Source: a virus. From it: DNA of 22,453 nucleotides. Within the stretch, counting starts at the first letter, position 1. The number at the start of each line of letters is the position of its first letter. Below, piece by piece: positions 805 to 22,453 of the stretch. The notes under the pieces are model-generated. The model searched no databases, was not told the origin of the DNA, and was given only the letters and a program-made list of their open reading frames with translations. The stretch lies in the IMG/VR virus record IMGVR_UViG_3300017782_000250, positions 1 through 22,453 of that record, one strand, 5' to 3'. Made by a program: the position numbers and the translations under genes.

Positions 805-1109
805 TGTCAGACACAACTAGTCCTTGGAAGAATACACCTCTCAACAAAGCTACTAAAGAGTATATGGACTTCTTTAGAATTAGAGCCATACCTGCAAGTA
901 GTGATGATGTTGAATATACCATTGCTCCACAATACAATCAAAGACCAGACCTGTTAGCACACGACATTTATGATAATGCAAGGCTATGGTGGGTTTTTGC
1001 ACAAAGAAATATGGACATAATTGAGGATCCCATATATGATTTCAAATCCGGAACAACAATAAAAATTCCAAAGGGCGGACCATTAAAAAGTGCATTAGGA
1101 GGAGAATAA
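804..1109 (+). CDS. 53: Baseplate wedge protein gp53 (short, LysM-like core)
   Basis: This 101-residue protein carries the gp53 signature RPDLLAHDIYDNARLWWVFA at residues 47-66, followed by a DP turn (75-76) and a GTTIKIP strand (83-89). The pattern of a short helix pair, LWW and a terminal beta strand is the LysM-like fold of gp53. In T4, gp53 clamps neighbouring wedges together when six wedges close around the hub. T4 gp53 is about twice as long, so this is a minimal form that keeps mainly the core. The ATG at 804 shares its A with the stop of the upstream gene (TAATG) and has a GGAGG at 790-794, which fixes the start and suggests translational coupling. I am confident of the family; its role here is inferred from T4. 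Confidence 0.9.
   Translation: MSDTTSPWKNTPLNKATKEYMDFFRIRAIPASSDDVEYTIAPQYNQRPDLLAHDIYDNARLWWVFAQRNMDIIEDPIYDFKSGTTIKIPKGGPLKSALGGE
1097..1104 (+). promoter_or_regulatory. Strong Shine-Dalgarno for the 792-residue gene
   Basis: AGGAGGAG lies in the last codons of gp53, nine bases before the ATG at 1114. It is the closest match to the anti-Shine-Dalgarno consensus in the window and fixes the start of the downstream gene. Confidence 0.75.
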
Positions 1110-3492: not shown

Positions 3493-3502
3493 CAGGATAG
3501 AC

Positions 3503-5074: not shown

Positions 5075-5506
5075 ATGGCAGACTTATATAAAAAAATCAC
5101 AGTTCCAACAGCAGACAGAGGCAAACCCGTAGTCACTAATCGTGCATACAAAGGGTTAAGCACGGTCAATCCAAATAACAACAGCAAATCCCTATTTGAC
5201 ATAGCATTGATCAAACAAGATATACTGAATCATTTTCATATAAGACAGGGTGAAAAGCTGATGAATCCTACTTTTGGAACAGTTATATGGGACGCAATAC
5301 ACGAACCGCTAACAGAACCAATGAAAGAAGCCATAGCAAAGAACGTTACAAGTATTGTAAACAGCGACCCACGTGTGGTAGCAAGTAAAATTAACATAGA
5401 TTCATATGAAAGCGGACTTCAAGTAGACGTAGACTTGATGTATTTGCCATATAATATTTCAGAAAGTTTAAGACTAAAATTTGATGAAAATAACGCACCG
5501 TATTAA
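5075..5506 (+). CDS. 25: Baseplate wedge protein gp25 (GPW/gp25 family)
   Basis: This 143-residue protein has the family hallmark RQGE at 57-60, NPTFGT at 64-69 and HEPL at 76-79. It is followed by a helix (MKEAIAKNV) and the closing strand pair KINIDSYESGLQVDVDLMY. In T4 and in type VI secretion (TssE), gp25 binds the gp6 core and seeds sheath polymerisation on the wedge. Older databases label the family 'lysozyme', but it is structural. T4 gp25 is of similar length, so the protein looks complete. The start is the ATG 12 bases after the gp5 stop, with only a weak AGGT upstream (5061-5064); the better AAGGAG at 5045-5050 is rather far away. That suggests coupling to gp5 translation. The gene lies directly before gp6, its expected partner. 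Confidence 0.93.
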   Translation: MADLYKKITVPTADRGKPVVTNRAYKGLSTVNPNNNSKSLFDIALIKQDILNHFHIRQGEKLMNPTFGTVIWDAIHEPLTEPMKEAIAKNVTSIVNSDPRVVASKINIDSYESGLQVDVDLMYLPYNISESLRLKFDENNAPY

Positions 5507-8500: not shown

Positions 8501-9087
8501 GAGAAATTAATAAAATTAAATCTATCAGTGATGACGTAATTTACCATCCAGTAAAATATAAAGTTTTATTTGGAGCAAAAGCTGACGCTCAGGTTCAAGC
8601 TAATATTAAAATTGTAAAGAACCCAGATCAAGTTGTTAATGATAACGATATTAAAGCAAGAGTGATTTCTGCAATAAATGAATACTTTGCTTTAGAAAAC
8701 TGGGACTTCGGTGACAGTTTTCATTTCTCAGAGATGGCTACTTATGTAATGAATCAAGTTGCACCTGATCTAGTTAACATTGTAATTGTTCCTAAGCAAG
8801 ACTCACAAGGATTTGGAAGTCTTTATGAAATTAAGTCTGAATCAGATGAAGTTTTCATAAGTGGAGCAACAGTTGATGACGTAACAATTATCGATGCAAT
8901 TACGGCAAGTAAGTTAAAAGCATCAGGTACAGTTATTACAGGAACAACAGCTACAACAAGCGGTGTTACAAGCGGATCAAGTTATACTTCAGGAAATACA
9001 ACAAGTTCAAGCAGTTCTAGTTCAAGCAGTTCAAGTTCAAGCAGTTCTAGTTCAAGCAGTAGCGGATCGTCTGGGAGTGGATATTAA
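5557..9087 (+). CDS. 6: Baseplate wedge protein gp6 (J-like), enlarged, with poly-serine tail
   Basis: This 1,176-residue protein starts with the conserved gp6 N-terminus: a helical block (FDNLRRTMINYLRQNYPEDF near 34-53, then ALIDLIAFLGQNLAFRVDLN and an arginine-rich helix to about 110). The C-terminal part has the baseplate-J closing pattern: NEYFALENWDFGDSFHFSEM (near 1043-1062), then NIVIVPKQDSQGFGSLYEI and DEVFISGA. In T4, gp6 forms the ring connecting all six wedges and clamps gp25 and gp7. T4 gp6 is about 660 residues, so this one carries roughly 500 extra residues, mostly in the middle. At 815-826 there is a perfect EF-hand-like loop, DSDSDGVVDDPE. The last 45 residues are Thr/Ser/Gly-rich and include 20 consecutive serines. 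The stop overlaps the next start (TAATG). Confidence 0.92.
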   Translation: MSSTNRQNRLLLAEDWKKVYQSFRNAEFKSYDFDNLRRTMINYLRQNYPEDFNDYIESSEYLALIDLIAFLGQNLAFRVDLNARENFLELAERRESILRLARLLSYSPKRNQCANGLLKFESIATTEDIVDSNGTNLASQTILWNDPSNINWREQFEKVLNAALPVNSTVGKPIKKDTVEGVPTDQYRFDSSNSDVPVYTFSKNVDGKNMQFQVVSTNVTGGVIEEEAPLPGNNLAFLYRDDGRGPGSSNTGYFAHFRQGILDQGTFNVDSPSTNQTISLEATNVNNTDIWLYKLDSIGAESESWTKVDSIEGNNIVYNSLRKSIRNIYGTLSKTQDKVDLIFSDGTFGNLPKGQFRVYYRTSINDQYNIVPSDLVAISVTIPYTSKTGNPENITLSLELKYTVDNATVSETNASIRENAPSTYYTQNRMVTGEDYQVSPLGISQEIIKTKSVNRTSSGISRYYDLLDSTGKYSSTNLYGADGIIYKDKFTEKKTFTFSTKTDVQGVIANTITPILSQKQMLNYYLTNFPKTLVADLGAKWSQKTAITNQATGSFVDVTDSTLQVGTFTSSALKFIEAGTLLKFVAPTGFHFMSNNSHALMQGNADHPNAITYKWVKVVSVTGDGRTDNDDGTGPIILNDIIPTGAILSELRPKFGKTLLSDVQSQIVDQVFAFKTFGLRYDVNLRQWRMITQNNLDITSDFSTGKTGDVTDQQLDSSWLLLFETDGEKYTITSRGQRYIFESNEEIRFYYDSTSKIFDNRTGQIIKDKINILSINTRPDSTSAFTVDYPWEVSKEYRDGDGYIDSKKVEISFFDSDSDGVVDDPETFVTVVDEATNPLTKYIFQKKYTTSDGIEDYKYMDNSSNAVQIKQSESVVGALSSYTDGQVFYLVTEGVFKIYSSTAGTLALTTDYKAYVGRDGIKFHYIHSADDDSRIDPSSSNIIDTYLLTRTYDTNFRQYLDGTLTAKPLPPSSDNLFNNYGGEINKIKSISDDVIYHPVKYKVLFGAKADAQVQANIKIVKNPDQVVNDNDIKARVISAINEYFALENWDFGDSFHFSEMATYVMNQVAPDLVNIVIVPKQDSQGFGSLYEIKSESDEVFISGATVDDVTIIDAITASKLKASGTVITGTTATTSGVTSGSSYTSGNTTSSSSSSSSSSSSSSSSSSSSGSSGSGY
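7999..8034 (+). other. EF-hand-like calcium loop encoded in gp6
   Basis: Residues 815-826 of gp6 read DSDSDGVVDDPE. This satisfies the EF-hand/dockerin loop spacing: D1, D3, D5, G6, hydrophobic at 8, D9, E12. A weaker DGDGYID lies just upstream (7951-7971). Calcium binding is inferred from the pattern only. Confidence 0.55.
9004..9063 (+). repeat. Serine-codon repeat at the 3' end of gp6 (15-base unit)
   Basis: Twenty serine codons in a row are built from a 15-base unit AGTTCTAGTTCAAGC at 9013-9027 and 9043-9057, with a one-base variant at 9028-9042 and a partial unit before. Only AGT, AGC, TCA and TCT are used. The stretch is followed by GSSGSGY and the stop. It should form a flexible tail, and the DNA repeat could change length by slippage. 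Confidence 0.9.
9073..9077 (+). promoter_or_regulatory. Ribosome binding site of the giant gene
   Basis: GGGAG within the last codons of gp6 ends nine bases before ATG 9087, which itself overlaps the gp6 stop as TAATG. This supports the chosen start and coupled translation. Confidence 0.6.
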
Positions 9088-12000
9088 TGTCATATGATGA
9101 TAACCAAAACGAATATCCGTTACCAGTTCCAGGACAAGAAGACAAACGTACTAGAACTAGTGCAGAACATCTGCCAAGATACTTTCGTACTTCACACAAC
9201 AAAAAGTTTTTACAAGGTACACTAGATCAACTTACACAACCAGGTGTTGCTGAAAAGATTAGTGCTTACTATGGTAGAAGAATTTCTAAAGCACGTAAGG
9301 CGGCTGACAACTATGTTGGTGATGTAAGTACTCAAAGAGAAAATTATCAGTTAGAGCCTGCAACAGTAATCAAGGACGAATTAAACAACGTTACTTTTTA
9401 CAAAGACTATAACGATTTAAAAAATCAAATCAAAGCATTTAACGGTACTGTAGACAACGACAGTAAATTGTTTAGCCAAGAATATTATGCTTGGAATCCT
9501 AACATTGATTGGGATAAGTTTACAAACTTTAGAGATTACTATTGGTTAGAGAACGGACCATTGTCTATTCCTGTTGTTGGACAAGCAAGAGGACTAGTAA
9601 GCACATACACGGTTACAAGCCAAGACAACTTGGATAACAAAGCATACATATTTTCCACAGACGGAAATACATCTAATCCAACACTTAAATTATACAGAGG
9701 ACAAACATATAAGTTTGATATTAATACTCCTGGTATGCCGTTGTCAATCAAGACAGCTAGAACATTAGATTCACAATACAATTATAGTGTAGGTATTAGC
9801 GATAGTACACACAGCACAGACGTTGGTATCATTGAGTTTGAAGTAGACTTACTTGCACCAGACACATTATATTATGTAAATGGCAATGATATTAATGCAA
9901 GTGGATTAATACAAGTTTATGATATTTTAGAAAATACTGAAATTGATGTAGAAAAAGAGATTGTTGGTAAGAAAACTTACAAAATGACAAACGGTTACGA
10001 GTTGTCAAATGGTATGAAGCTAGACTTCCAAGGTACAGTAACACCTGCCAAGTATGCAGAAGGTAATTGGTATGTTGAAGGCGTTGGTGATGAGATTAGA
10101 TTAATCAACGAACAAGAAATAGAAGTACCAGGTACTGTAAGCACAAACAAATCTATTCCTTTTGATAGCGAAAGTTTTGATAGAGCACCTTTCAGTAATG
10201 CCAATGCTTGGGCAAAAGACAAAGATTACATTATACAAAACAGAGCAAGTCCAAGTAAATCACAATGGTCAAGATATAACAGATGGTTTCACAAAGATGT
10301 TTTAGAAACTATAGCATTAATTAACAAGCAACCTAGTGATGTTAACCAAACAGGTAGAGCGGCAAGACCTATTATTGAATTTGATAGCGATCTTAAACTT
10401 TGGAACTTTGGTACATCTGCAAAAGATAATGTTGACTTATTAGATACTTTTACAACTGATGTATTTTCAACTATTGAAGGAGCATTAGGTTACAACATTG
10501 ACGGAGTAGACGTAGCGGACGGAATGAGACTTCTGTTTACTGCTGATCCTGATACAAGAGTTGCAGGTAAAATTTTTAAAGTAAAATTTATCACACATAA
10601 CTTTATTAGACAAATTAGTTTAATTGAAGAAACAGATACTGATCCATTAGAGAATGAAACAGTATTGATTAATGATGGTACAGACTATAAAGGTAAGATG
10701 TGGTACTTCAATGGTACCAAGTGGTTAGCTGGACAGGATAAAACTGCAATTAACCAATCTCCTACGTTTGACTTATTTGATCAAAGCGGTAACAGTTTCA
10801 ATAGTGCAACAATTTATAACAATTCAACGTTTAGTGGAACTAAAGTATTTTCATATAAAAAAGGAACAGGAACTAATGATGTTGTATTAGGATTCCCTTT
10901 AACTTATAGAGCATTAGAAAACACAGGTGATATTGTATTTGACTTTAACTTATTACAAGATTCATTTACATACCAAGACGAAGACAATGCAAACGTAACA
11001 GCTAACACAGATGTAGGTCTTTTAAGAAGATATTCAGGTAGAACTACATTTACGTATACATCAGGTTGGACTAAAGGCTATGAAGATAGCAAACAGTTAG
11101 TAGAACGTCAATATATTGTAGATACACAATACAATGACTTTGGAATTGATGTTTACGATAACAGTGGCGATCTAAACGACTTGTTTGTAAGAGTATACGT
11201 AAACAACAAAAGAAAAATGAATGGTATAGATTATACCATCAACAGAATTAATAGAACTGCATTTGTAACATTTGTTACAGATCTTAAAGTAGATGACATA
11301 CTTGTTATTAAAACAAAAAGTGCTACAAAGAAAAATGCTAACGGTGTTTATGAAATAGCATCAAACTTAGAACACAATCCACTTAACAATAACATAGATT
11401 CTTTTACACTAGGTGAAGTTAACGATCATGTGTTAAGCATCTGCGAGATGCGTGATGATTTTGTAGGAGACTTTCCAGGTACAGGTAATTTAAGAGATTT
11501 AGGAAATTTATCTGCATATGGTAACAGATTTGTACAACACAGTGGACCATTTAATTTAGCAAACTATCATATCACAAGCAAAGATGCTAACATTATTAAA
11601 TCGTTACAATTTGCAAAAAGAGAATACGGCAAGTTTAGAAAGCTGTTCTTACAAACAGCAGACAAGCTAGGATTTGACGGACAGAATAAGATTCACTTTG
11701 ATTTAGTGATGGAAAAACTTAATAAAGATAAGTCAAATGATATGCCGTTCTACTTCAGTGATATGCTTGGCTATACAAGTGCTAAGAGGTCAACACACGT
11801 TGTAGAGAATCCAAGCACACAATATTACGCATTGAATACAGCATTTGATCTTACAACACTTTCTAATAAGTCCGTAAACGTTTATATAAATGGGGTTCAA
11901 CTTATAGAAGGCACTGATTACAAATTTGAATCAGACTTTAGTGGCTTTGTAACTATTACTAAAACAAAAGTTATTAATGATGTTATTGATATTTACGAAT

Positions 12001-15000
12001 ACAATACAACTGACGGAAGTTACATTCCTGCAACTCCTACTAAACTAGGTTTGTATCCAAAGTTTAAACCAGAGATATTTACTGATACAACATATCAAGT
12101 TCCAACTAAAGTTATTCAAGGACACGACGGAAGTATTTTTGTTGCGTACGAAGACTTTAGAGATGATTTATTATTAGAACTAGAAAAAAGAATTTATAAT
12201 AATATCAAAGTAGAATATGATGCTACTATGATAAACATATTTGAATTCATCGGCGGTGAAAGTAGGGATACAACATTTACAAGATCAGCTAGAGACAAGT
12301 CATTGTTACCAGAATTTATTGAATGGAATAATGCAGTAGGTTCTCCGGACTATGCAGATAACAGCTTTTGGTCAAGAACTAACAGCTTTACATTTAATTA
12401 CAGCAACACCAATAGTCCAAGCGGAAAACAAAACGCAGGGTATTGGAGAGCAATATACAAAGAAGCATATGATACTGATCGTCCTCATACACACCCTTGG
12501 GAAATATTAGGATACAGCGAAGAGCCAACTTGGTGGCAGACTGTTTATGGTGCGGCACCTTATACAAGTGAAAATAAAATACTATGGCAAGACATAGAGA
12601 AGGGTGCATATAGAATACCTAATGAACCTGTAACTTATAACAGCAAGTATGCTAGAGCAAATATAACAAAACATATTCCTGTAGATGATGGCGGCGAACT
12701 GTTAAGTCCATTGGATTCAAACTATGCAAAAGATTATATTAGTAATAGAACACAACAGACGTTTGTGTTTGGAGATCAAGCACCTACAGAAACAGCTTGG
12801 CGTAGAAGTTCAGAGTATCCATTTGCACTAATGATTGCTTGGTTGTTAAATCAGCCAACTAAAATCTTAGGACTAGGTTATGATAGATCAAGAATTAAAC
12901 GTAACCCTGCTAAAGAAGTTATTTACAGTGAAACAAATAAAAGATTAAGACTTGAAGATGTTGTTTTTCCTAATACAACTTCAGATGCTATTAGAGTACA
13001 AACAGCAGGACTAGTAAACTATGTTCATGATTACATGAATAGTAGAACAGTTAAGTATTACAAAAATTATCAAACAGATCTTAAAAATGTTACTAACCAA
13101 TTGGGATTAAAGATTGGCGGATTTACTGACAAGAGTAAATTTAAACTTATACTAGATTCAAGAACACCGTTCAACGAAGGTAACGTGTTTGTTCCTGAAG
13201 AAAACTATCAAATATTTTTAAACAAGTCAAGTGTAATTGACCTTGTTCCATACAGTGGTGTAATCATTGAAAAGGTCCAAGGCGGATTTGTTATTAGAGG
13301 TTACAACTATAATAATCCTTACTTTAAATATTACTCACCAATATCATTAGCAGACGATCCTGTAGTGAGAGTGGGCGGAGTAAGTGCAGACTTTGTAACT
13401 TGGACAGAAGGACAAAGTTACAGCCCAGGACTAATTGTAGAGTTTGGTGGACGTTACTTTATGACAGAAAGCCAACACATTGCCGCTGAAAGTTTTGATC
13501 AAACAAAATTTGTTGCTATGCCAGAACTTCCTGTAGAGGGTGGCAGAACAGCAGTATTCCATAGACAGTGGAATGAAGGAATAAATGACGAACCATTAGA
13601 ACTTGCTTACGGAACACAATTACAAACTATTCAACAAGTAGTAGACTTCTTGCTAGGTTATGAAAGATATTTAAAAGTTCAAGGATTTGTTTTTGAGAAT
13701 TACAATACAGATATAAACGAAGTTGAGGATTGGCGTTTAAGTGCAAAAGAATATATGTTCTGGACTACACAGAACTGGGCAGAGAAAAGTGTTATTACTT
13801 TAAGTGCTGGTGCAAACAAGATTTGCTACTATAAAAAATATCACGTAGCTGATGATATCTTTGATAACTTTTACGGTTATAACTTATTCAAAGCAGATGG
13901 TAAAAAATTAATTCCTGCTTATGCAAGTGTTTATAGAGACAATGATAACAGGATTGAGATCACTACTAAAAATACACCGGACGGAATCTTTAGTGTTAAG
14001 TTACCATTAGTACAAACTGAACACGTTGTATTATTAGACAATACAACTGTGTTTAAAGATTACATTTACGATCTAGAACCAGGCTACCGTCAGTCAAGAA
14101 TAAAAGTTATGGGCTACAGAACAGACAAATGGACTGGTGGCTTTAACATTCCAGGATTTATATATGACAATGCCAAGGTTACAGAATGGGCAGAGTGGAC
14201 AGATTACGCAGTTGGCGATACAGTAAAACACAAAGAATTTTATTATGTTGCAAAAGTAAAAATTCCAGGACAATTAAACTTTGATGCTAAACAATGGGAA
14301 CGTTTAGATAAACGACCAGAGCCAGGACTAATGGCAAACTTTGATTACAAAGCAAAACAGTTTGAAGATTTCTATGATTTAGATACAGATAACTTTGATA
14401 CTTCACAACAAAGAGTTGCACAGCATTTAATTGGTTATCAGAAACGTAAGTATTTGGAAAACATTATTAATGATGATGTTTCACAGTATAAATTCTATCA
14501 AGGATTTATTCAAGACAAAGGTACAAAGAATAGTTTAACTAAACTGTTTGATGCTTTATCAAACACAGATGCTGATAGTGTAGAGTTTCATGAAGAATGG
14601 GCTTTACGTTTAGGACAAATAGGTGCGGCACAATCCTTTGACGAAGTAGAATACAAACTTGACGAAGCGAAGTTTAGATTATCTCCGCAACCTGTTGCAC
14701 TTGTAGATAGTGTCACAGGAACAGAAACTGATTTAATTTACAGACAAAGACCGTTTGAAACTTATTTAAAACCAGATGGATATAATCATAAACCATTCCC
14801 TACAAAATATAAAGATGTTGATTACATTCAAACAGCAGGATACGTTAATCCTTCAGATGTTAAAACACAGGTTGCAAACTATGATGCAATTTTAAATATT
14901 GCAATTACAACTCTTAACGTTGGTGATTATATTTGGACAGGTACAAACAAAACTAACGACTGGGACGTATTTAAATATCTACGTACAGAAGACAAAGTAA

Positions 15001-18000
15001 TTAAGCTAACAAAAAATAGTACAACTGATGAAGTTGAAGTAAAACTAAACAATCAAGCAAGATATGTCAAAGACGATATCATTGGTTTAGTTGATGTTAC
15101 TGACAATGAAAGATTTTACAAAGTATTACGTTCAGAATTAGATACTGTATTTTGTACTGAAAATGGAAAAACAACAGATGTAGATCCTGCAACAGGATTT
15201 GTTACTAACTTTACTTCTGTTAGAGTTGCAGACCTAGAAGCGGCAAATACAAAACTTATAAACAGTGAAATAAAAGTAGGTGAAACTATTTGGGTTGACG
15301 ATGATAGTTCTAGCAAATGGGTAGTAATTAAAAACAATCCTGTACATAGCCAACACCAAGTTATTTCTAATGTAGAAACAAGTGATATTACCACAAACTT
15401 TGGTAAAGTAATTGCTTGTGATGAAAGAAACTCAACACTAGTTGTAGGTGCAAGTGAATCCAACAAGGTTTACATATACAATAGAACAAACGATGGCGGA
15501 CAATATATACACGCACAAACATTAGACGCACCAACAGGTATTTACACAGGTGACGGTAAGTTTGGTACAGGACTTGCGTTATCAAGAGATAGCAAATGGT
15601 TAGTGGTAGGTGCACCGCAGGCAAGTAACGTTAAAACAAAATTTGCAGGAAGCTTCACAGGTGCTCAGTCTTATGTTAAGAACGACATTGTAAACTATCA
15701 GGAAAACTTCTGGGAAGCACAATTTCCTATTGCACAGGCACAAGGTACATTAACATTTAACAGTTTTTATGATACTGCCACAGTAGCAGAAGCTTCATGG
15801 AACGGGTCAAACTATCCAGAAGTTGTTTATGCTGTAAGGGGTAATTATCACTTTAATGTTCCAACGGATCATATGTTAATTAGAGCTCCGTTGTCTCAAT
15901 ACGAAGCAACAGCGGCTGGCGACACTATTGTATTAAACTGGGATCAATATTCACAAAATTATCCAGCGGGTATTTTACCTTTTGGTAGCAACGGCCCGGG
16001 CGTAGCACAATTCGAAGGAAGTAAAACTATTGCAAGTAAAGTAGATGCAATACTATACTTTGATAATATGTTAAGAACACCTAACGTTGGTGATACTATT
16101 AGTACAACAACTGCAATAGGTACAGTTGATTACATCCATGTTGAAAACGTAAACCAAGCAACTATCTATATCAAAGACATGAACGGTGAGTTCACTGACA
16201 GTGGTAGTGCAACACTTGGTACGCAAAACATGGGAACTTATGTTGCATTGAATCCTTTAAATTCTGGAGCAACGTTTGGCGGCTGGTGGAAAGTAACTGG
16301 CTTAACAAGTTTTACAAGTTCAGTTAAGAGTGTAACAACTCCACAGTTTGTAGTACAGGATATTATTACACAATCAGAAAGTAAATCACCTGAAGTATAC
16401 TATAACACAATGGACGATGTGTATGCGTTGAATCAAGTTAGTGATCCAACCAAGGGCGGTAAGTTAGGACATTTAAGTTTCTACAACAAACAAGGTATGC
16501 CAGACCTAAGTCCATACTGGTTCTTTAGAGCAAACAAGGCTTGGACAGATACACTAAACACAGGCGATACATTTAAGATGTATGTCAATAAGGTTAGAAA
16601 TAGTTTGAATACTGTATTTGATCCTGCAACACTAGGAATAAACACAAACTACATTAACCAAGCACTAGGACACGAAGTTTATGATCTATGGGACGGTTAT
16701 GTAGATGTTACATTTACAAACTTTGATAACCAAGGTAATGCTTTTATTCCTCAGATAGGACAAACGATTATTGATCAAAATACAAACGCAACTGGTGAAG
16801 TTGTTTATGTACAAGAACAATTATTGGATTGTAGAGTATACGTTAAAAATAGAAGCGGTACATTTAGCTTTGGTAATTTACACTCCGCAACAAGCACCAT
16901 TGCAATTAAAGATGGAGTAAGTGCAGGCATTGACAGACTATCAGGTAGATTAGACAATATGGATATGTCTAGTTCGTTAACTGGTAAGTTAGTAGTTGTA
17001 AGATTTACAGACTCAACACAATTACCTGTAACAACACCTACATTTAGAAATGAAGTTGAAATACAAGTTTATAACGATAGGACCGTAAATGGTGTAGCAA
17101 GAACACCTAACTATCCTAATCCACTTAACAAGGATTGGAAACAAGTTTCAGCACTTAAAACAGACAGTACTGGTTCAGCAAGTTCATTTACAAACGAAGG
17201 TGTATATTTTGTTTATGAAAAAATGGGTACAGGACTTTATAGTTACCAGCATGGTTACACAAATCCTCAAAGAGCAAGTAACCGTAATCTAGGTACTCAG
17301 ATAGAATTATGTAAGTCAAATACAATAACAGATTTTTATAGATTATATGTAAGTGCTCCAGGAAACTTAGATGTTAGCAACAGTGGTAGAATACACTTTG
17401 TTAATCACGGTACAGATGCAGACGGTACAGTTTACGAATGGGGTAGAAGTAAGAATCTATTCTTTAGAGGCGAGTATGATGTCGCACAAACTTATTACAC
17501 AGACGATATAGTTTTATATCAAGGAAGTTTCTATCAAGCAAAAACTAATTTAACACCAGGTGCGTTTGTTTTAACGTATTGGACATTGTTAGCAAACAAC
17601 ATTGACTACATTGGTTATGTTCCTAATGATACAGGATTAAGTGTAAGTGATGATAGCACATTTGATAAAGGCAACTTAATACAGTATGCACACCCATTCT
17701 CAATTAGCAAATACGGAGATGTACTTGCAACTGTGGCAGACTTTAACAACAGTGATCCTAAGATTATAATTTACAGAATTAACAACGGCCACTATGAATT
17801 TTCACAGATGCTTCCTGCTCCGACAGTTGGAATAAAATATGGAAGTGCAATTAGTCTAAACGACACAGGAGATATGTTAGCCGTAGGTGCACCAGAAGAC
17901 GATACACGTTCAGACAATAACGGTAAGGTATTTGTATACACTAGTGTAGGCGGTGTGTTTAGTCAAACACAAACTTTATACAGTCCTGAAAATGATGTAG

Positions 18001-21000
18001 CTGAAAGATTTGGAGCCGCGATAGACTTTGAAGGCAATGATTTAATTGTAAGTTCTAAAGGCGGAGACCTTGTAACAAGCACAACGTTTGATGTGTTGTC
18101 AACTACATTTGATAATAACTTAACACAGTTTGAAAGTGTAAACACAGATAGCGGACAAGTGTTTATGTATCAGAAGGTACAAAACAAATTATTATACGCA
18201 GAGAAGTTTAATTACAAAAATGCTTCAGTAGAAAGATTTGGCGAATACTTATTGTTTAATGAGAATCACGTTTACGTTCCGATGCCAGAGCTTTCAGTTA
18301 GAGATATGGAAGATTCATCTACTTGGAACAACTACATAGGTACGTTACTAGATTACAAGAGAGATAGAGAAGCTCTACCTTGGCAAACTTTGCACACACC
18401 AACTGACCAAGTTGACTTAACTAAATTTAAAGGCGTATTCATTTACACAATGGGACCTAATCCTATTGCACAAAAAATAGATTACATTGATCCTATACAA
18501 GGAAAAATTGCCGGAGCGGCTGAGGAAGAATTAACTTTCAAAACACATTATGATCCAGCAGTTTATACTAACGGAACTAACACACCTAATACTGTAATTG
18601 ATCCAGAAAATTATTGGAATAATGCAAACGTAGGCAGACTATGGTGGGATATTAGCACAGCTAAATTTGTAAACCCATACCAAGGAAACATAATTTACAA
18701 TACAGCTAACTGGAATAAATTATTTACTGGAGCAAGTATTGATGTTTATGAATGGGTTGAATCTACACTTACTCCAACACAATGGAACGAAACAGCAGAC
18801 ACAGAAGAAGGTCTTGCAAAAGGTATAAGTGGTACAGCTAAAGATGTAAACACCTTTGTACAAGTACAAGTTTACAATGAAATATCAAAAGGATTTAGTA
18901 ACAAATATTACTATTGGGTTAAGAATACAAAAGTTATTCCAGACTTAGAGTGGAGAAAAACTTCTGCTTATGACGTAGCACAATTAATTACGGATCCAAT
19001 GGCAATGGGACAAAAATTTGTTGCACTTTACAGCAACAATAAATTTGGTTTATACAACTGTGAATCACTTGTAAGTGGACCAGACAATGCAATCAACTTC
19101 CGTTATTGGACTATTGATAATAAAGAAATTAACATACACAATCAGTATCAGTTAATGTCAGAAGGTTTAGGTACAAGTAAACCAAATGCAGATATTGAAC
19201 GTAAATGGTATGACAGTTTAATTGGTGTTGATACAAACGAAAGACCGGTGCCAGACACTATCTTAAGTGAAAAACAAAAATATGGTATACTAGACAGACC
19301 AAGACAAGGTATGTTTAAAAATAGAGTTGAAGCACTTAAACAAGTTGTTGAAAGAGCTAACACTACATTAAAAGCAAACCTAATTGTTGACGAATTAAAT
19401 CTAAGTGCTTTCTTAAGCAAAGATCCTACACCAACATTGTTAAGCAAACAGTTTGACAAGTCAGTTACAACAAATGCAGAACTACAGTTTGTTGGAGTAT
19501 CAAATGTTATTCCAGCAGTACTAACACCTGTGTTTGTAAACGGCAAACTTGAAAGAGTTGATATTGCAAATGGTGGTAAAGGTTACGTTACAGTTCCAAC
19601 ATACGAGTTTGGATTAGTAGGTAACGGTAGCGGTGCAGAAATTACAATTACAATGAATACAGCAGGTACCATTACAAATGTTGCTGTTAAGAATGCAGGT
19701 TCAGGATATCCTAGCACAACAACATTGTCAGTAAGAAAATATAGTGTACTTGTTGCTGTTGATGAAACAGTTAGTAACAAGTGGGCAATATATGCCTACA
19801 ACAACACAACTAAATTATGGGAAAGAACATCAAGTTCAAGTTACGACACAACTAAATGGTGGAGTTACACAGACTGGTATGACATAGGTTACAGCGAATT
19901 TACAGATATTAATTTCCTAGTTGATTATTCATATGAATTAGAAAGTTTAACTGACACAGTTGGTGATATTGTAAAAATTAGTACAATAGGATCAGGTGGT
20001 TGGTTACTGTTAGAAAAGATCAGCGATATCGGTACAGACTACACAACAAAATATAAAACTGTTGGTAGACAGAACGGAACAATAGCTTTATCAAGAGCAT
20101 TATACGATCCAGCAAGTAGTAATATTGGTTACGACGGATTAAGTTATGATACTTCATTCTATGACGATCAACCAACACTAGAGTTAAGAAAAATCTTAAC
20201 AGCATTAAGAGATGATATCTTTATAAATGATCTTGCTGTACACTATAACGAACTGTTCTTTGCAAGTTTAAGATATGCGTTTAGCGAACAACCAATGGTT
20301 GATTGGGCATTTAAAACTTCATTCTTGAAAGCTAAACATAACGCAGGTGATTTAACACAGAAAATTACTTTCCAAAATGATAGCTTACCTAGTTATGAAG
20401 ATTTTGTTGAAGAAGCTAAACCATACAAAACAAAAATTAGAGAATACATTAGTTCTTACACAAAAACAGATCCAACTGCAACAGGTGTAACGGACTTTGA
20501 TATACCACCAGCTTACAGCATTGATGATGGTAAGATTGTTCCTTCAAGTTTAAAAGTTAAAGATGATTTAATATATGGACAAGATGCAAACATAGTTGAT
20601 TACCCTAACAAGTATTGGGCTGAAAATGTTGGCTTTGAAGTATTAACGGTAAACATCAAGAATGGCGGAACAGGTTATTTAGATGTACCAGTAATTAAAT
20701 TTACAGGCGGCGGCGGATCAGGTGCAACTGCAACAGCAACACTTGGTACAGGCGGAGCAATAAAATATATTACAGTTACAAATCCAGGAAGTGGATATCT
20801 AAGTGCTCCTACAGTTAGCATTAATGGAACACAGTCAACAGGTTCGGTTGCGGCAGTTGTTTCAGCACAGTTAGGTAACAGCAAGGTTAGAGCATTACAT
20901 CACGTATCTAAGTTTGATAGAGTAACAGGAACGTTCTTAATTACTACACTATCGCAGACAGAAAACTTTACAGGTACAGGAAGTAAAACAACATTTAACC

Positions 21001-22453
21001 TAACATGGCCAATGGATTTAAGAAAGACTCAAATAGAAGTTACTGTAGATGGTGTTGAATCATTACAAAGTGAATACACATACAGCAACGTTGAATACTC
21101 AGATAAGTCCTATGTTAGAACCAAAGGACAAATCATGTTTGCTGAACCTCCGGCAAATAATGCTGTGATTGTTGTTAAGTATTCTAAAGAAATTACTATG
21201 CTACAAGCACAGGATAGAATTAACTTGTTCTATACTCCATCAACAGGTATGTTAGGAAATGACGTATCGCAGTTAATGGACGGTATTGATTACGGAGGAA
21301 TTGAAGTTAAGAGTTTCACGTTTGGAGCAGGTACAGGTTGGGCTAGTGATCCTTACTACACAACAACTTGGGACACTTATGATAACACATACGAAGATGA
21401 AGTTTTTGTATTAGACGGAAGTACAAATGTATTTGCACTTGCTAAACCATTAGCGAATGGCGTAGTATATAACGTATACAAAAATGGTATTAGAGTAGAT
21501 GATCCGCAATACGATGGTTCAACAGTTCCTACAAATGTAAATGCTGTAATGCAAAGTATTACAGGAACAGGACAAACTACAGTACAGTTAGACGAAGAAA
21601 AAATTCCAACAGTAGCAAATGATGTTATTGTAATTAGAAAAGCATCAAGTGACGGTTCGTTTATTCCAGATCCAGATGGATATGATACATTAGTACAAGG
21701 TGGTGACCTAGCTTATGCTACTGCCAAAGGTATTAGTGCAGAAGAAATTGTTATTGACGGTGACGGATTTGTTACTCCACTAACTTCAAAAGGACCTGAA
21801 GAGCTTGTTCCAGGACAAGTTTTAGATACACTAGATATTAAGGTTTATGAAAGAACTGGAGACGGTTCAAGTGTGTTACATAGTTACAACTATTTAGGTG
21901 ACGGAACTAATAAAGACTTTGATATTAATTACGTACCATTAAGTCAAAAGGACGTTTGGGTAAAAGTACATGGCACTATTTTATCACACTCAGAGTTTAC
22001 AGTTGACTATCAAAACAAAAAACTTAAATTAACAACTGCACCAGGTGACAAACAACAGGTACACATTATTACAATGAGTAACAATGGTGAGAAAATACTT
22101 GATGTTGATCAGTTTATAGGTGACGGTTCAACTGCACAGTTTGTTACAAGCATTCCATTTAAATCAACATTAAGTTTCTTCTTAACAGTTGACGGTGTAA
22201 CAACAAACGTTGACATGGCAGAAACAGATGGCACTTATGCACAAAAAGGAATGTGTGTGTTTAAACTAGGTACTGCACCTCTTAACAGTACTGTAATACA
22301 ATATGCAATATTTGATAGTGCAAGTAAATCATTCTCACAGATTGCAACAGATACATTTACAGGTGACGGAACAAACAAAGAATTTGCTCTTGCACAAACT
22401 CCACTAAATCAAAAACCATTAGAACATAATGTAATTGTTAAAGTTGGAAACAA
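9087..22453 (+). CDS. Giant multi-domain baseplate/tail structural protein in the gp7 position (3'-truncated by window)
   Basis: I read this frame codon by codon from ATG 9087 to the window end and found no stop: 4,455 full codons, roughly 490 kDa, and still open. It lies where gp7, the wedge initiator, lies in T4 (1,032 residues there). The N-terminus (residues 1-165: LPRYFRTSHNKKFLQGTLDQL, YYAWNPNIDWDKFTNFRDYY) matches what I know of giant structural proteins after gp6 in marine T4-like phages. Further conserved-looking blocks are QGHDGSIFVAYEDFRDDLLL (1011-1030) and EPTWWQTVYGAAPY (about 1146). A helical KGT segment with YKFYQGFIQDKGTKNSLTKL (about 1800) resembles helical wedge segments of gp7/tail-protein-I type. 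Others are YIDPIQGKIAGAAEEEL (about 3132) and RPRQGMFKNR (about 3406). Between them lie W/Y modules, FG-GAP-like repeats, glycine-rich pairs and C-terminal beta repeats. Only about eight cysteines are present. No signal or membrane segment is seen. A wedge/fibre-scaffold role is inferred; it may combine gp7 and fibre-like functions. Confidence 0.85.
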   Translation, partial: MSYDDNQNEYPLPVPGQEDKRTRTSAEHLPRYFRTSHNKKFLQGTLDQLTQPGVAEKISAYYGRRISKARKAADNYVGDVSTQRENYQLEPATVIKDELNNVTFYKDYNDLKNQIKAFNGTVDNDSKLFSQEYYAWNPNIDWDKFTNFRDYYWLENGPLSIPVVGQARGLVSTYTVTSQDNLDNKAYIFSTDGNTSNPTLKLYRGQTYKFDINTPGMPLSIKTARTLDSQYNYSVGISDSTHSTDVGIIEFEVDLLAPDTLYYVNGNDINASGLIQVYDILENTEIDVEKEIVGKKTYKMTNGYELSNGMKLDFQGTVTPAKYAEGNWYVEGVGDEIRLINEQEIEVPGTVSTNKSIPFDSESFDRAPFSNANAWAKDKDYIIQNRASPSKSQWSRYNRWFHKDVLETIALINKQPSDVNQTGRAARPIIEFDSDLKLWNFGTSAKDNVDLLDTFTTDVFSTIEGALGYNIDGVDVADGMRLLFTADPDTRVAGKIFKVKFITHNFIRQISLIEETDTDPLENETVLINDGTDYKGKMWYFNGTKWLAGQDKTAINQSPTFDLFDQSGNSFNSATIYNNSTFSGTKVFSYKKGTGTNDVVLGFPLTYRALENTGDIVFDFNLLQDSFTYQDEDNANVTANTDVGLLRRYSGRTTFTYTSGWTKGYEDSKQLVERQYIVDTQYNDFGIDVYDNSGDLNDLFVRVYVNNKRKMNGIDYTINRINRTAFVTFVTDLKVDDILVIKTKSATKKNANGVYEIASNLEHNPLNNNIDSFTLGEVNDHVLSICEMRDDFVGDFPGTGNLRDLGNLSAYGNRFVQHSGPFNLANYHITSKDANIIKSLQFAKREYGKFRKLFLQTADKLGFDGQNKIHFDLVMEKLNKDKSNDMPFYFSDMLGYTSAKRSTHVVENPSTQYYALNTAFDLTTLSNKSVNVYINGVQLIEGTDYKFESDFSGFVTITKTKVINDVIDIYEYNTTDGSYIPATPTKLGLYPKFKPEIFTDTTYQVPTKVIQGHDGSIFVAYEDFRDDLLLELEKRIYNNIKVEYDATMINIFEFIGGESRDTTFTRSARDKSLLPEFIEWNNAVGSPDYADNSFWSRTNSFTFNYSNTNSPSGKQNAGYWRAIYKEAYDTDRPHTHPWEILGYSEEPTWWQTVYGAAPYTSENKILWQDIEKGAYRIPNEPVTYNSKYARANITKHIPVDDGGELLSPLDSNYAKDYISNRTQQTFVFGDQAPTETAWRRSSEYPFALMIAWLLNQPTKILGLGYDRSRIKRNPAKEVIYSETNKRLRLEDVVFPNTTSDAIRVQTAGLVNYVHDYMNSRTVKYYKNYQTDLKNVTNQLGLKIGGFTDKSKFKLILDSRTPFNEGNVFVPEENYQIFLNKSSVIDLVPYSGVIIEKVQGGFVIRGYNYNNPYFKYYSPISLADDPVVRVGGVSADFVTWTEGQSYSPGLIVEFGGRYFMTESQHIAAESFDQTKFVAMPELPVEGGRTAVFHRQWNEGINDEPLELAYGTQLQTIQQVVDFLLGYERYLKVQGFVFENYNTDINEVEDWRLSAKEYMFWTTQNWAEKSVITLSAGANKICYYKKYHVADDIFDNFYGYNLFKADGKKLIPAYASVYRDNDNRIEITTKNTPDGIFSVKLPLVQTEHVVLLDNTTVFKDYIYDLEPGYRQSRIKVMGYRTDKWTGGFNIPGFIYDNAKVTEWAEWTDYAVGDTVKHKEFYYVAKVKIPGQLNFDAKQWERLDKRPEPGLMANFDYKAKQFEDFYDLDTDNFDTSQQRVAQHLIGYQKRKYLENIINDDVSQYKFYQGFIQDKGTKNSLTKLFDALSNTDADSVEFHEEWALRLGQIGAAQSFDEVEYKLDEAKFRLSPQPVALVDSVTGTETDLIYRQRPFETYLKPDGYNHKPFPTKYKDVDYIQTAGYVNPSDVKTQVANYDAILNIAITTLNVGDYIWTGTNKTNDWDVFKYLRTEDKVIKLTKNSTTDEVEVKLNNQARYVKDDIIGLVDVTDNERFYKVLRSELDTVFCTENGKTTDVDPATGFVTNFTSVRVADLEAANTKLINSEIKVGETIWVDDDSSSKWVVIKNNPVHSQHQVISNVETSDITTNFGKVIACDERNSTLVVGASESNKVYIYNRTNDGGQYIHAQTLDAPTGIYTGDGKFGTGLALSRDSKWLVVGAPQASNVKTKFAGSFTGAQSYVKNDIVNYQENFWEAQFPIAQAQGTLTFNSFYDTATVAEASWNGSNYPEVVYAVRGNYHFNVPTDHMLIRAPLSQYEATAAGDTIVLNWDQYSQNYPAGILPFGSNGPGVAQFEGSKTIASKVDAILYFDNMLRTPNVGDTISTTTAIGTVDYIHVENVNQATIYIKDMNGEFTDSGSATLGTQNMGTYVALNPLNSGATFGGWWKVTGLTSFTSSVKSVTTPQFVVQDIITQSESKSPEVYYNTMDDVYALNQVSDPTKGGKLGHLSFYNKQGMPDLSPYWFFRANKAWTDTLNTGDTFKMYVNKVRNSLNTVFDPATLGINTNYINQALGHEVYDLWDGYVDVTFTNFDNQGNAFIPQIGQTIIDQNTNATGEVVYVQEQLLDCRVYVKNRSGTFSFGNLHSATSTIAIKDGVSAGIDRLSGRLDNMDMSSSLTGKLVVVRFTDSTQLPVTTPTFRNEVEIQVYNDRTVNGVARTPNYPNPLNKDWKQVSALKTDSTGSASSFTNEGVYFVYEKMGTGLYSYQHGYTNPQRASNRNLGTQIELCKSNTITDFYRLYVSAPGNLDVSNSGRIHFVNHGTDADGTVYEWGRSKNLFFRGEYDVAQTYYTDDIVLYQGSFYQAKTNLTPGAFVLTYWTLLANNIDYIGYVPNDTGLSVSDDSTFDKGNLIQYAHPFSISKYGDVLATVADFNNSDPKIIIYRINNGHYEFSQMLPAPTVGIKYGSAISLNDTGDMLAVGAPEDDTRSDNNGKVFVYTSVGGVFSQTQTLYSPENDVAERFGAAIDFEGNDLIVSSKGGDLVTSTTFDVLSTTFDNNLTQFESVNTDSGQVFMYQKVQNKLLYAEKFNYKNASVERFGEYLLFNENHVYVPMPELSVRDMEDSSTWNNYIGTLLDYKRDREALPWQTLHTPTDQVDLTKFKGVFIYTMGPNPIAQKIDYIDPIQGKIAGAAEEELTFKTHYDPAVYTNGTNTPNTVIDPENYWNNANVGRLWWDISTAKFVNPYQGNIIYNTANWNKLFTGASIDVYEWVESTLTPTQWNETADTEEGLAKGISGTAKDVNTFVQVQVYNEISKGFSNKYYYWVKNTKVIPDLEWRKTSAYDVAQLITDPMAMGQKFVALYSNNKFGLYNCESLVSGPDNAINFRYWTIDNKEINIHNQYQLMSEGLGTSKPNADIERKWYDSLIGVDTNERPVPDTILSEKQKYGILDRPRQGMFKNRVEALKQVVERANTTLKANLIVDELNLSAFLSKDPTPTLLSKQFDKSVTTNAELQFVGVSNVIPAVLTPVFVNGKLERVDIANGGKGYVTVPTYEFGLVGNGSGAEITITMNTAGTITNVAVKNAGSGYPSTTTLSVRKYSVLVAVDETVSNKWAIYAYNNTTKLWERTSSSSYDTTKWWSYTDWYDIGYSEFTDINFLVDYSYELESLTDTVGDIVKISTIGSGGWLLLEKISDIGTDYTTKYKTVGRQNGTIALSRALYDPASSNIGYDGLSYDTSFYDDQPTLELRKILTALRDDIFINDLAVHYNELFFASLRYAFSEQPMVDWAFKTSFLKAKHNAGDLTQKITFQNDSLPSYEDFVEEAKPYKTKIREYISSYTKTDPTATGVTDFDIPPAYSIDDGKIVPSSLKVKDDLIYGQDANIVDYPNKYWAENVGFEVLTVNIKNGGTGYLDVPVIKFTGGGGSGATATATLGTGGAIKYITVTNPGSGYLSAPTVSINGTQSTGSVAAVVSAQLGNSKVRALHHVSKFDRVTGTFLITTLSQTENFTGTGSKTTFNLTWPMDLRKTQIEVTVDGVESLQSEYTYSNVEYSDKSYVRTKGQIMFAEPPANNAVIVVKYSKEITMLQAQDRINLFYTPSTGMLGNDVSQLMDGIDYGGIEVKSFTFGAGTGWASDPYYTTTWDTYDNTYEDEVFVLDGSTNVFALAKPLANGVVYNVYKNGIRVDDPQYDGSTVPTNVNAVMQSITGTGQTTVQLDEEKIPTVANDVIVIRKASSDGSFIPDPDGYDTLVQGGDLAYATAKGISAEEIVIDGDGFVTPLTSKGPEELVPGQVLDTLDIKVYERTGDGSSVLHSYNYLGDGTNKDFDINYVPLSQKDVWVKVHGTILSHSEFTVDYQNKKLKLTTAPGDKQQVHIITMSNNGEKILDVDQFIGDGSTAQFVTSIPFKSTLSFFLTVDGVTTNVDMAETDGTYAQKGMCVFKLGTAPLNSTVIQYAIFDSASKSFSQIATDTFTGDGTNKEFALAQTPLNQKPLEHNVIVKVGN
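13401..13520 (+). other. W/Y carbohydrate-binding-like module A (giant protein ~1439-1478)
   Basis: The encoded segment WTEGQSYSPGLIVEFGGRYF followed by MTES shows the pattern W-x-x-G-x-x-Y-x-x-G-x-x-V-x-x-x-x-x-x-Y, like small chitin-binding-type (CBM5/12-like) modules. It is the first of four similar copies. Confidence 0.45.
14187..14306 (+). other. W/Y carbohydrate-binding-like module B (giant protein ~1701-1740)
   Basis: WTDYAVGDTVKHKEFYYVAK and a closing W-E-R-L keep the W, Y, GD, V, Y and terminal W positions of the module. This is the best-preserved copy. It is followed directly by the KGT helical segment. Confidence 0.5.
14403..14690 (+). other. Helical KGT-motif segment (giant protein ~1773-1868)
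   Basis: The stretch is helix-rich: RVAQHLIGYQKRKYLENII, then YKFYQGFIQDKGTKNSLTKL and EFHEEWALRLG. A KGT-type turn followed by a helix is typical of wedge proteins such as T4 gp7 and P2 gpI, as I recall them. It is the main internal link of this protein to the gp7 role. Confidence 0.4.
15399..15632 (+). repeat. FG-GAP-like propeller repeats, cluster 1 (giant protein ~2105-2182)
   Basis: Two units are visible: FGKVIACDERNSTLVVGASE followed by KVYIYN, and FGTGLALSRDSKWLVVGAPQ. Both show FG, then a D-rich turn, then L-x-VGA, the hallmark of integrin-alpha-type FG-GAP blades. The acidic loop is degenerate compared with the full calcium-binding form. Confidence 0.6.
15648..15731 (+). other. W/Y carbohydrate-binding-like module C (giant protein ~2188-2215)
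   Basis: SFTGAQSYVKNDIVNYQENF followed by WEA keeps the Y-x-x-x-D-I-V-x-Y-x-x-x-x-W pattern of the other modules and begins right after the first FG-GAP-like cluster. Confidence 0.45.
16083..16230 (+). repeat. Duplicated beta module, copy 1 (giant protein ~2333-2381)
   Basis: NVGDTISTTTAIGTVDYIHV, then ATIYIKDMNGEFTDSGSAT. The spacing G-x-T-I, T/I-G-x-V, I-Y-I-K-x-x-x-G-x-F-x-x-G matches the segment at 16753-16905, indicating an internal duplication. Confidence 0.5.
16753..16905 (+). repeat. Duplicated beta module, copy 2 (giant protein ~2556-2606)
   Basis: IGQTIIDQNTNATGEVVYVQ, then RVYVKNRSGTFSFGNLHSAT. It aligns with the copy at 16083-16230 over the same motif positions with about one residue of length difference. 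Confidence 0.5.
17484..17591 (+). other. W/Y carbohydrate-binding-like module D (giant protein ~2800-2835)
   Basis: AQTYYTDDIVLYQGSFYQAK, then a GAFVLTYWTLL ending, preserve the Y, D-I-V-x-Y, F-Y-x-A-K and final W-x-x-L positions. It closely matches module C and precedes the second FG-GAP-like cluster. Confidence 0.5.
17691..18290 (+). repeat. FG-GAP-like propeller repeats, cluster 2 (giant protein ~2869-3068)
   Basis: About four units are visible: SISKYGDVLATVADFNNSDP; YGSAISLNDTGDMLAVGAPE with GKVFVYT; RFGAAIDFEGNDLIVSSKGG with GQVFMYQ; and RFGEYLLFNENHVYVPMPEL. The L-A-VGAPEDD and G-x-V-F-V-Y patterns are typical of FG-GAP blades. Together with cluster 1 they would make about six blades. 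Confidence 0.6.
19540..19745 (+). repeat. GxGY glycine-rich beta repeat, copy 1
   Basis: GKLERVDIANGGKGYVTVPT, then GNGSGAEITITMNTAGTITN and AGSGYPSTTTLSV. The arrangement of two G-x-GY turns flanking an alternating Thr/Ala strand segment recurs at 20638-20876. Confidence 0.6.
20638..20876 (+). repeat. GxGY glycine-rich beta repeat, copy 2
   Basis: VLTVNIKNGGTGYLDVPVIK, then TGGGGSGATATATLGTGGAI and PGSGYLSAPTVSI. It has the same order of elements as the copy about 1.1 kb upstream: N-G-G-x-GY, a Gly/Ala/Thr strand, then GSGY-x-x-x-P/T. Confidence 0.65.
20961..22453 (+). repeat. Tandem GDGT...VDG beta-sandwich-like repeats, continuing past the window
   Basis: At least six degenerate units start with G-[DT]-G-[TS] or a related turn: FTGTGSKTTFNL (20967), LDGSTNVFAL (21411), ITGTGQTTVQL (21555), YLGDGTNKDFDI (21891), FIGDGSTAQFV (22116) and FTGDGTNKEFAL (22356). 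Most are followed by a hydrophobic V-x-V-x-[VH/DG]-G strand (VTVDGVE, VKVHGTI, LTVDGVT) and an acidic-aromatic D-Y/E-Y strand. This architecture is common in phage tail and fibre proteins. A conserved-looking block, RINLFYTPSTGMLGNDVSQL, lies between units 1 and 2. Confidence 0.6.

Follow-up and report, generated by a model that had tools for sequence, protein, structure and literature searches.

The DNA stretch analyzed here (the window) comprises 22,453 nucleotides, positions 1 to 22,453 of the IMG/VR virus record IMGVR_UViG_3300017782_000250, which is probably a fragment. Its features are listed in Table 1. The subject of this study is a giant gene that follows a gene for a gp6-type baseplate wedge protein, starts with the ATG at position 9087, and continues to the window end without a stop codon or an N. 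The frame comprises 4,455 codons, or 13,365 of the 22,453 bases (59.5%), and the last two bases of the window form its partial codon; at the base composition of the window, the probability of so many stop-free codons arising by chance is about 10^-155. These figures bear out the original prediction of an uninterrupted frame that takes up about 60% of the window and is more than four times as long as T4 gp7 (4,455 against 1,032 codons, a ratio of 4.3).

Table 1. Features of the window. E, expectation value; aa, amino acid residues of the giant protein; CV, coefficient of variation; rmsd, root-mean-square deviation; aligned, number of aligned residues.
Feature	Position	Strand	Basis
Small baseplate wedge subunit gene	804..1109	+	PHROG match
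Baseplate hub / tail lysozyme gene (gp5-type)	3503..5062	+	PHROG match
"Baseplate wedge subunit" gene	5075..5506	+	PHROG label
gp6-type baseplate wedge gene, 1,176 aa	5557..9087	+	phrog_10646, E 4.6e-294; phrog_219, E 3.2e-25
Giant gene (putative baseplate protein), first 4,455 of 4,906 codons	9087..22451	+	frame; PHROG 10938
Conserved core 1, aa 1-1880	9087..14726	+	length CV 0.03, 53 proteins
Module aa 176-301	9612..9989	+	also in cyanophage gp9 / fiber / tail proteins
Fiber-docking-type beta-sandwich repeat, aa 674-743	11106..11315	+	profile only
Fiber-docking-type beta-sandwich repeat, aa 904-974 (model: 898-973)	11796..12008	+	profile + model
CBM5/12-like fold, aa 1436-1480	13392..13526	+	9jeo_A, Z 7.5, rmsd 1.2, 45 aligned
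CBM5/12-like fold, ~aa 1697-1742	14175..14312	+	Milano baseplate 8fqc_Q1, Z 7.5, rmsd 1.6, 45 aligned
gp7-type core motif KGTxxSxxxLF at aa 1811 (aligned aa 1807-1828)	14505..14570	+	profile
Hypervariable insert, aa 1881-3110	14727..18416	+	length CV 0.226; 313-1,536 aa in aligned homologs
Two FG-GAP-like propeller blades, aa 2105-2122 and 2159-2176	15399..15614	+	own pattern
CBM_5_12 (Pfam PF02839), aa 2796-2820	17472..17546	+	E 1.4e-7, above Pfam cut-off
FG-GAP_2 (Pfam PF14312), aa 2918-2951, and blade aa 2975-2990	17838..18056	+	Pfam; own pattern
Conserved core 2, aa 3111-3830	18417..20576	+	length CV 0.048
GSGY...P repeat module, ~aa 3478-3549	19518..19733	+	many copies in P-SSM4 gp7
GSGY...P repeat module, aa 3851-3944	20637..20918	+	phrog_460 match
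C-terminal fiber-docking-type repeats from ~aa 3950, 4103, 4262, 4336, 4420	20934..22451	+	profile; first copy also modeled

The 3' end of the gene, which lies outside the window, was found by extending the contig, as had been proposed, through four near-identical IMG/VR records that span the window end (3300017757_000157, 3300017751_003243, 3300047383_000319, and 3300031774_002071; loci L005-L008). The frame closes at 4,906 codons in three of them, giving a full-length protein with a computed mass of 550.8 kDa, and at 4,912 codons in L005, because of a one-base difference beside the stop codon (around position 15117 of L005), which yields another C-terminal end. Ungapped comparison with the window gave 19 mismatches for L005 and 13 for L006 over positions 8681-22453, and five and four mismatches over the covered parts of L007 (from 14615) and L008 (from 13912), respectively; it revealed no sign of an insertion or deletion, or of the frameshift or assembly join that the original prediction had considered. 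A closed longest frame of more than 2,500 codons is present in 84 of the 163 loci collected (some contigs are present twice); in all, 525 related stretches were detected. All 500-residue blocks of the protein are under purifying selection, the ratio of nonsynonymous to synonymous polymorphism (pN/pS) being 0.09-0.34 in each block, as compared with six relatives of 75-93% identity. Since the frame closes, is kept in near-identical records and long homologs, and has low pN/pS in all blocks, it is one gene and not an assembly join.

The giant protein is matched over four stretches by the profile of PHROG 10938 (E 1.6e-300), a giant virion structural protein of jumbo phages. The category of this family, "head and packaging", is unsupported by the place of the giant gene beside gp6. 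A tblastn search against 50,697 phage records found relatives at ~23-32% identity in jumbo phages, namely PA5oct, MIJ3 and its kin, Atu_ph07, Phosso, SCTP-2, RaK2, K64-1, 121Q, PBECO4, GAP32, CBB, Munch, and others. The numbers of matched records were 62 for residues 1-2800 (40 listed), 57 for residues 1901-4455 (40 listed), and 60 for residues 700-1900 (all listed). Three of the 62 are Prochlorococcus records, and with residues 1-700 as the query, cyanophages match, among the matches listed (60 of 93), solely at a module around residues 176-324. The module at residues 176-301 is 29-38% identical to proteins of P-SSM2, P-SSM4, Bellamy, and other cyanophages. The first gene of the window matches the same jumbo phages, among the matches listed (10 of 57 records). 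The tblastn relatives, the first-gene matches, and PHROG 10938 place the virus with phages of the RaK2/PA5oct/Atu_ph07 type, not with the cyanophages. The marine T4-like context originally proposed therefore holds in one respect, as giant proteins do occur at this locus in marine T4-like phages (P-SSM4 gp7, 7,312 residues), but the nearest isolated relatives are jumbo phages of the RaK2/121Q/PA5oct/Atu_ph07 type, not cyanophages.

For the homolog alignment, 54 less redundant proteins (51 from contigs and three from isolates) were picked from the 163 loci. They range from 3,680 to 5,247 residues, the shortest one (L107) ending at a contig edge: it closes 9 bases before the contig end, probably by an end error, and was excluded from the length and pair statistics (53 proteins) and included in the 54-protein counts. 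Atu_ph07 FDI40_gp180 (4,449 residues), annotated as a structural protein, is homologous to the giant over residues 19-1878 (27% identity) and core 2, and has the same one-base overlap with gp6; it differs on the alignment by its 1,536-residue insert and a far shorter C-terminal region (508 residues). According to the part covered of PMC11242549, AP-J-162 gp58, a 4,455-residue "structural protein" adjoining a wedge protein, is 49.6% identical to Atu_ph07. RaK2 ORF070w, the K64-1 giant, and 121Q gp582 (3,323 residues) or phAPEC6 gp245, all of ~3,320 residues, have homologous cores, with local matches of 23-31% for 121Q and K64-1, and lie directly after gp6, but are ~1,580 residues shorter than the window giant. 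The giant gene of phage Sharanji, whose listed host is E. coli K-12 MG1655, is 99% identical to that of 121Q. The giant of K64-1 (NC_027399, L181:5950-15927) is an open frame of 3,326 codons, annotated as 18 small coding sequences on both strands plus a 1,373-residue piece. Homologous cores are also present in the PA5oct/MIJ3 giant (3,857 residues in MIJ3) and SCTP-2 gp140 (3,807 residues); unlike that of the window giant, the insert is short in MIJ3 and SCTP-2 (313 and 506 residues, respectively), and the SCTP-2 giant, again unlike the window, has no adjacent gp6-like gene. The main text of the Atu_ph07 paper does not name gp180, and that of the RaK2 paper (PMC3622015) names neither ORF070 nor gp070. 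In the literature covered, namely parts of PMC6892783, PMC7029224, PMC11242549, PMC6102473, PMC7247149, PMC3037559, PMC9700779, and PMC3622015, with few subscription journals, we found no paper that calls the jumbo giant gp7 or describes its modules.

Four regions of the giant are separated by length variation on the alignment: two conserved cores, a hypervariable insert between them, and a C-terminal region (residues 3831-4906; coefficient of variation 0.119). Profiles and structure models point to modules of the CBM5/12, FG-GAP propeller, and fiber-docking types, in agreement with the mosaic of binding-type modules noted earlier; as to which of these are unique to the giant, modules of such types are also carried by other tail proteins of phages. 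In the insert, FG-GAP-like blades flank ~740 residues that include the CBM5/12 domain. At E 0.01, FG-GAP was found in seven and CBM_5_12 in five of ten scanned proteins (the window giant and nine homologs), one FG-GAP and two CBM matches among these being below the Pfam cut-off; neither domain was found at this threshold in L002, L003, and L081. The phrog_460 label "head closure Hc2" was rejected as a hint to function, since the matching stretch is a GSGY repeat with many copies in P-SSM4 gp7.

The C-terminal repeat unit is ~70 residues long, with further copies beyond the window near residues 4463, 4599, and 4788. One iterated profile counted ten copies over the full length of the protein, including two within core 1, and 2 to 11 copies in nine homologs; two other seeds found six copies each in the full protein. 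The E-values of the repeat profiles are too small, since the profile was iterated and the database contained 54 proteins. Structure models were built for residues 701-1900 and 3095-4250 (mean predicted local distance difference test score, pLDDT, 77.6 and 72.6, respectively) and back two of the repeat positions. The model of residues 898-973 aligns with a domain of CBA120 TSP4 (7rfv) at Z 8.8 (rmsd 1.9, 64 residues aligned), and that of residues ~3955-4034 at Z 9.4 (rmsd 1.5, 64 residues aligned); the modeled fold is that of CBA120 TSP4, the N-terminal domain of T7 gp17, and T5-type neck domains. The same match lists contain the T4 baseplate chain 5iv5_B, which we take to be gp6 by its length, at Z 5.8 and 6.5. 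The domain fold matches, obtained with VIA-align 2 at Z 7-9.4, are near the common-fold level. With Foldseek, neither model had a match at E 0.001 or better, and no gp7 chain is among the best 50 rows of each fold list, which is no evidence of absence.

The gene upstream of the giant matches the family that includes T4 gp6 (phrog_219). Its stop codon shares one base with the start codon of the giant (TAATG), and an overlap of exactly one base is present in 38 of the 49 loci with a measurable long upstream frame, a count in which contigs may repeat and the upstream frame is not confirmed as gp6 locus by locus; coupled translation of gp6 and the giant is therefore suggested. In five of six isolate records (MIJ3, Atu_ph07, K64-1, 121Q, and RaK2), the giant directly follows an annotated wedge protein. 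Downstream of it, the near-identical contig L006 encodes a 203-residue protein and then three fiber-like proteins in a row (L006:15767-21121), whose N-termini match the same PHROGs, 14394/15511, as if all three had one kind of docking end. Among the other upstream genes, the one labeled "baseplate wedge subunit" presumably encodes a protein of the gp25 kind. Near its 3' end, the gp6-type gene contains a 15-base tandem repeat (positions 9002-9060, 3.8 copies), which encodes a serine-rich C-terminal stretch just upstream of the giant start. Further upstream, near position 3469, the 83-kb near-identical contig L084 is out of register with the window by a small insertion or deletion.

gp7 forms a complex with two copies of gp6 and starts wedge assembly. 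In T4, Aeh1, F86, P-SSM4, Bellamy, phiM7, ACP17, Ps15, and PhiW-14, the protein used for comparison lies immediately after gp6 or after a protein annotated as a wedge subunit. The compared proteins vary in size from 246 residues in PhiW-14, 482 in ACP17, 503 in Ps15, 1,006 in phiM7, and 1,032 in T4 to 3,048 in S-PM2, 4,067 in Bellamy, 4,454 in P-HM2, and 7,312 in P-SSM4. A motif FYxx[KR]G[TI]xxSxxx followed by a hydrophobic pair (mostly LF) is present in T4, P-SSM4, P-HM2, S-PM2, Bellamy, phiM7, ACP17, and Ps15, with a looser form in PhiW-14. In a positive control, T4 gp7 and cyanophage gp7 were linked by hhalign over this KGT motif alone (95%, E 2.4e-8, 29 columns). The giant contains KGTKNSLTKLF from residue 1811, and KG[TS] is present in all 54 homologs. 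A motif profile built from 62 sequences of the gp7 locus, picked for carrying the motif (4 of 66 were dropped, the anchor being absent), matches the giant with a score of 23.4-23.7 (E 0.0019-0.0033). Among 61 segments tiling the giant, the two with the motif (residues 1806-1828) score 23.7 and 23.6, and the next best one scores 14.6; the KGT had been noticed before the profile was built, and the scan removes the choice of place, not that of the profile. None of 300 column shuffles reached the real score (best 20.2).

Other comparisons define the extent of this similarity. The giant resembles T4 gp7 in its place after gp6 and the KG[TI]xxSxxxLF spacing, but shows no significant pairwise or profile match with it. 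The cyanophage gp7 proteins of P-SSM4, P-HM2, and Bellamy are similar in giant size, the KGT motif, and the gp7 annotation, and GSGY modules are common to the giant and P-SSM4 gp7; the motif, however, lies near the N-terminus in cyanophages (residue 703 in P-SSM4 and 204 in Bellamy) and at residue 1811 here, and the cores do not align, although modules and motif are shared. The best alignments with the T4-only and cyanophage-only profiles also fall on the KGT motif, though they are not significant. No gp7 match was obtained by hmmscan of the giant against PHROGs and Pfam; phmmer of residues 1-1900 against PDB sequences gave one match, a flagellin (E 0.29), and 300-residue profiles of the giant detected shared modules in the P-SSM4 and Bellamy proteins only, and nothing in T4 gp7. 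Taken on its motif, the giant is likely homologous to gp7. The original placement of it at the gp7 locus is upheld by its position after gp6; clear homology to gp7 was not obtained, the match being at the level of a motif profile.

We consider it probable that the giant is one very large protein in the virion of a jumbo myophage, where it would belong to the baseplate wedge as a chassis in contact with gp6 and as a docking site for fibers. The two conserved cores would form the chassis; the gp7-like segment that carries the KGT motif lies at the end of core 1 and could pack on gp6, by analogy with T4 gp7. The small beta-sandwiches, about ten by profile, would hang on this chassis; elsewhere in phage tails this fold docks fibers or adaptors, and the repeats may be attachment points for the adaptors and fibers encoded just downstream. 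The FG-GAP propeller/CBM cassette might face outward and change with host or habitat. The giant would then probably both build the wedge and present docking and carbohydrate-binding surfaces. The relative RaK2 has six ramified long tail fibers on its baseplate, according to the parts covered of PMC3622015, an analogy that fits a docking rack without proving it. More tentatively, gp7 may be an ancient small core, enlarged in separate lineages to a chassis of 3,000 to more than 7,000 residues. In jumbo phages, this chassis would have become a multivalent fiber-docking rack, combining about ten beta-sandwiches with an FG-GAP propeller/CBM cassette that can be exchanged, and the wedge initiator would thereby set the number of fiber kinds.

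Earlier records already cover relatives of this protein, the locus, and, by inference, the presence in virions; this work supplies the anatomy and likely baseplate place of a protein mostly called "hypothetical" or "virion structural" in the records. If the gp7 link is true, one motif unites proteins of 246 to 7,312 residues at this locus, and jumbo phages gain a candidate attachment rack for their elaborate fibers.

Concerning virions, the parts covered of the structural proteome of the jumbo coliphage phAPEC6 (PMC7247149) report gp245, a "hypothetical protein" of 381.88 kDa identified by 17 unique peptides (coverage 7.6%), and the adjoining "baseplate wedge" gp244 of 131.18 kDa, identified by 21 unique peptides. 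These parts give no gel position for a giant protein. 121Q gp582 computes to 381.87 kDa and its neighbor gp583 to 131.21 kDa. Because the mass (within 0.01 kDa) and gene order match, we infer that gp245 is the counterpart of gp582, no phAPEC6 record being among the tblastn matches listed; a giant homolog is thus very probably present in virions. This speaks for a homolog, and not for the virion presence or cleavage of the window protein itself.

Several observations weigh against the wedge-chassis reading and its gp7 link. When T4 gp7 alone was compared with the giant by hhalign, E was 0.25 and 0.14, and 68 of 300 shuffles were as good; the cyanophage gp7 profile alone gave E 0.078, with 17 of 300 shuffles as good. 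The strict pattern KG[TI]xxSxxxL[FM] occurs in only 28 of the 54 homologs, and in the giant the FY before KG is four residues further off than in T4. The HPxG[FY] segment, found near the C-terminus of T4 gp7 and in PhiW-14 and ACP17, is present in none of the 54 homologs; it is not family-defining, as it is absent from P-SSM4 gp7 too. The KGT region was modeled at pLDDT below 50, too low for a comparison with the gp7 fold. The beta-sandwich is a common phage-tail fold matched at middling Z, so docking, like glycan binding, is a prediction. Finally, SCTP-2 is an exception to the gene order: the gene before its giant encodes a 3,096-residue protein unlike the window gp6.

Some of these points would also be expected if the giant were a separate adhesin or fiber-like baseplate protein that merely sits at the gp7 locus, with another protein in the gp7 role and KGT a convergence. 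We regard this as unlikely: T4 gp7 is unmatched by sequence, PHROG 10938 is distinct from the families that T4 gp7 matches (964 and 2885 among them), and the SCTP-2 giant lies away from a recognizable gp6, but the motif segment is a clear outlier along the protein, the giant follows gp6 in most isolates, and the core blocks are nearly constant in length, whereas the insert is not. It is far less probable that the frame is an artefact of assembly or that its product is a polyprotein processed into shorter functional proteins. The K64-1 giant is indeed annotated in pieces in RefSeq, and the mass in the phAPEC6 table, which in the part covered is presumably a predicted one, is silent on cleavage; yet the K64-1 frame itself is open throughout, and four near-identical records and dozens of divergent homologs keep one frame.

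A different question is whether the hypervariable insert is a structural ornament of the wedge chassis or a receptor-binding domain that determines host range. The latter is possible, and we hold it with reserve. The insert has a lower sequence identity than core 1 in 1,366 of 1,368 binned homolog pairs (1,378 in total, 10 outside the bins), pN/pS is highest in the insert among the four regions in five of six comparisons, and the FG-GAP and CBM_5_12 domains recur among the scanned homologs. On the other hand, the insert pN/pS is well below 1, the contigs have no known host, separate fiber-like genes lie downstream, and CBM5/12-like folds match pieces of other baseplates too.

Several further observations concern proteins of the compared loci. 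In SCTP-2, the protein directly before the giant homolog is itself a second giant (L004:5624-14914); its interpretation as an enlarged gp6 is unsupported (best E 0.31 against the window gp6). In the part covered of PMC7029224, VrlC was proposed as a replacement of gp7 in pelagi- and cyanomyophages. In both phiM7 and ACP17, a protein with the gp7 motif follows gp6 (L365, 5803-8823, and L366, 5749-7197, respectively) and VrlC is encoded separately (L365, 10636-12213, and L366, 8684-12150), so we doubt that VrlC is a general stand-in for gp7. In PhiW-14, gp64 (L368:3587-4327), annotated as "head closure Hc2", follows gp6 and carries a loose gp7 KGT motif; the 246-residue protein is a candidate minimal gp7.

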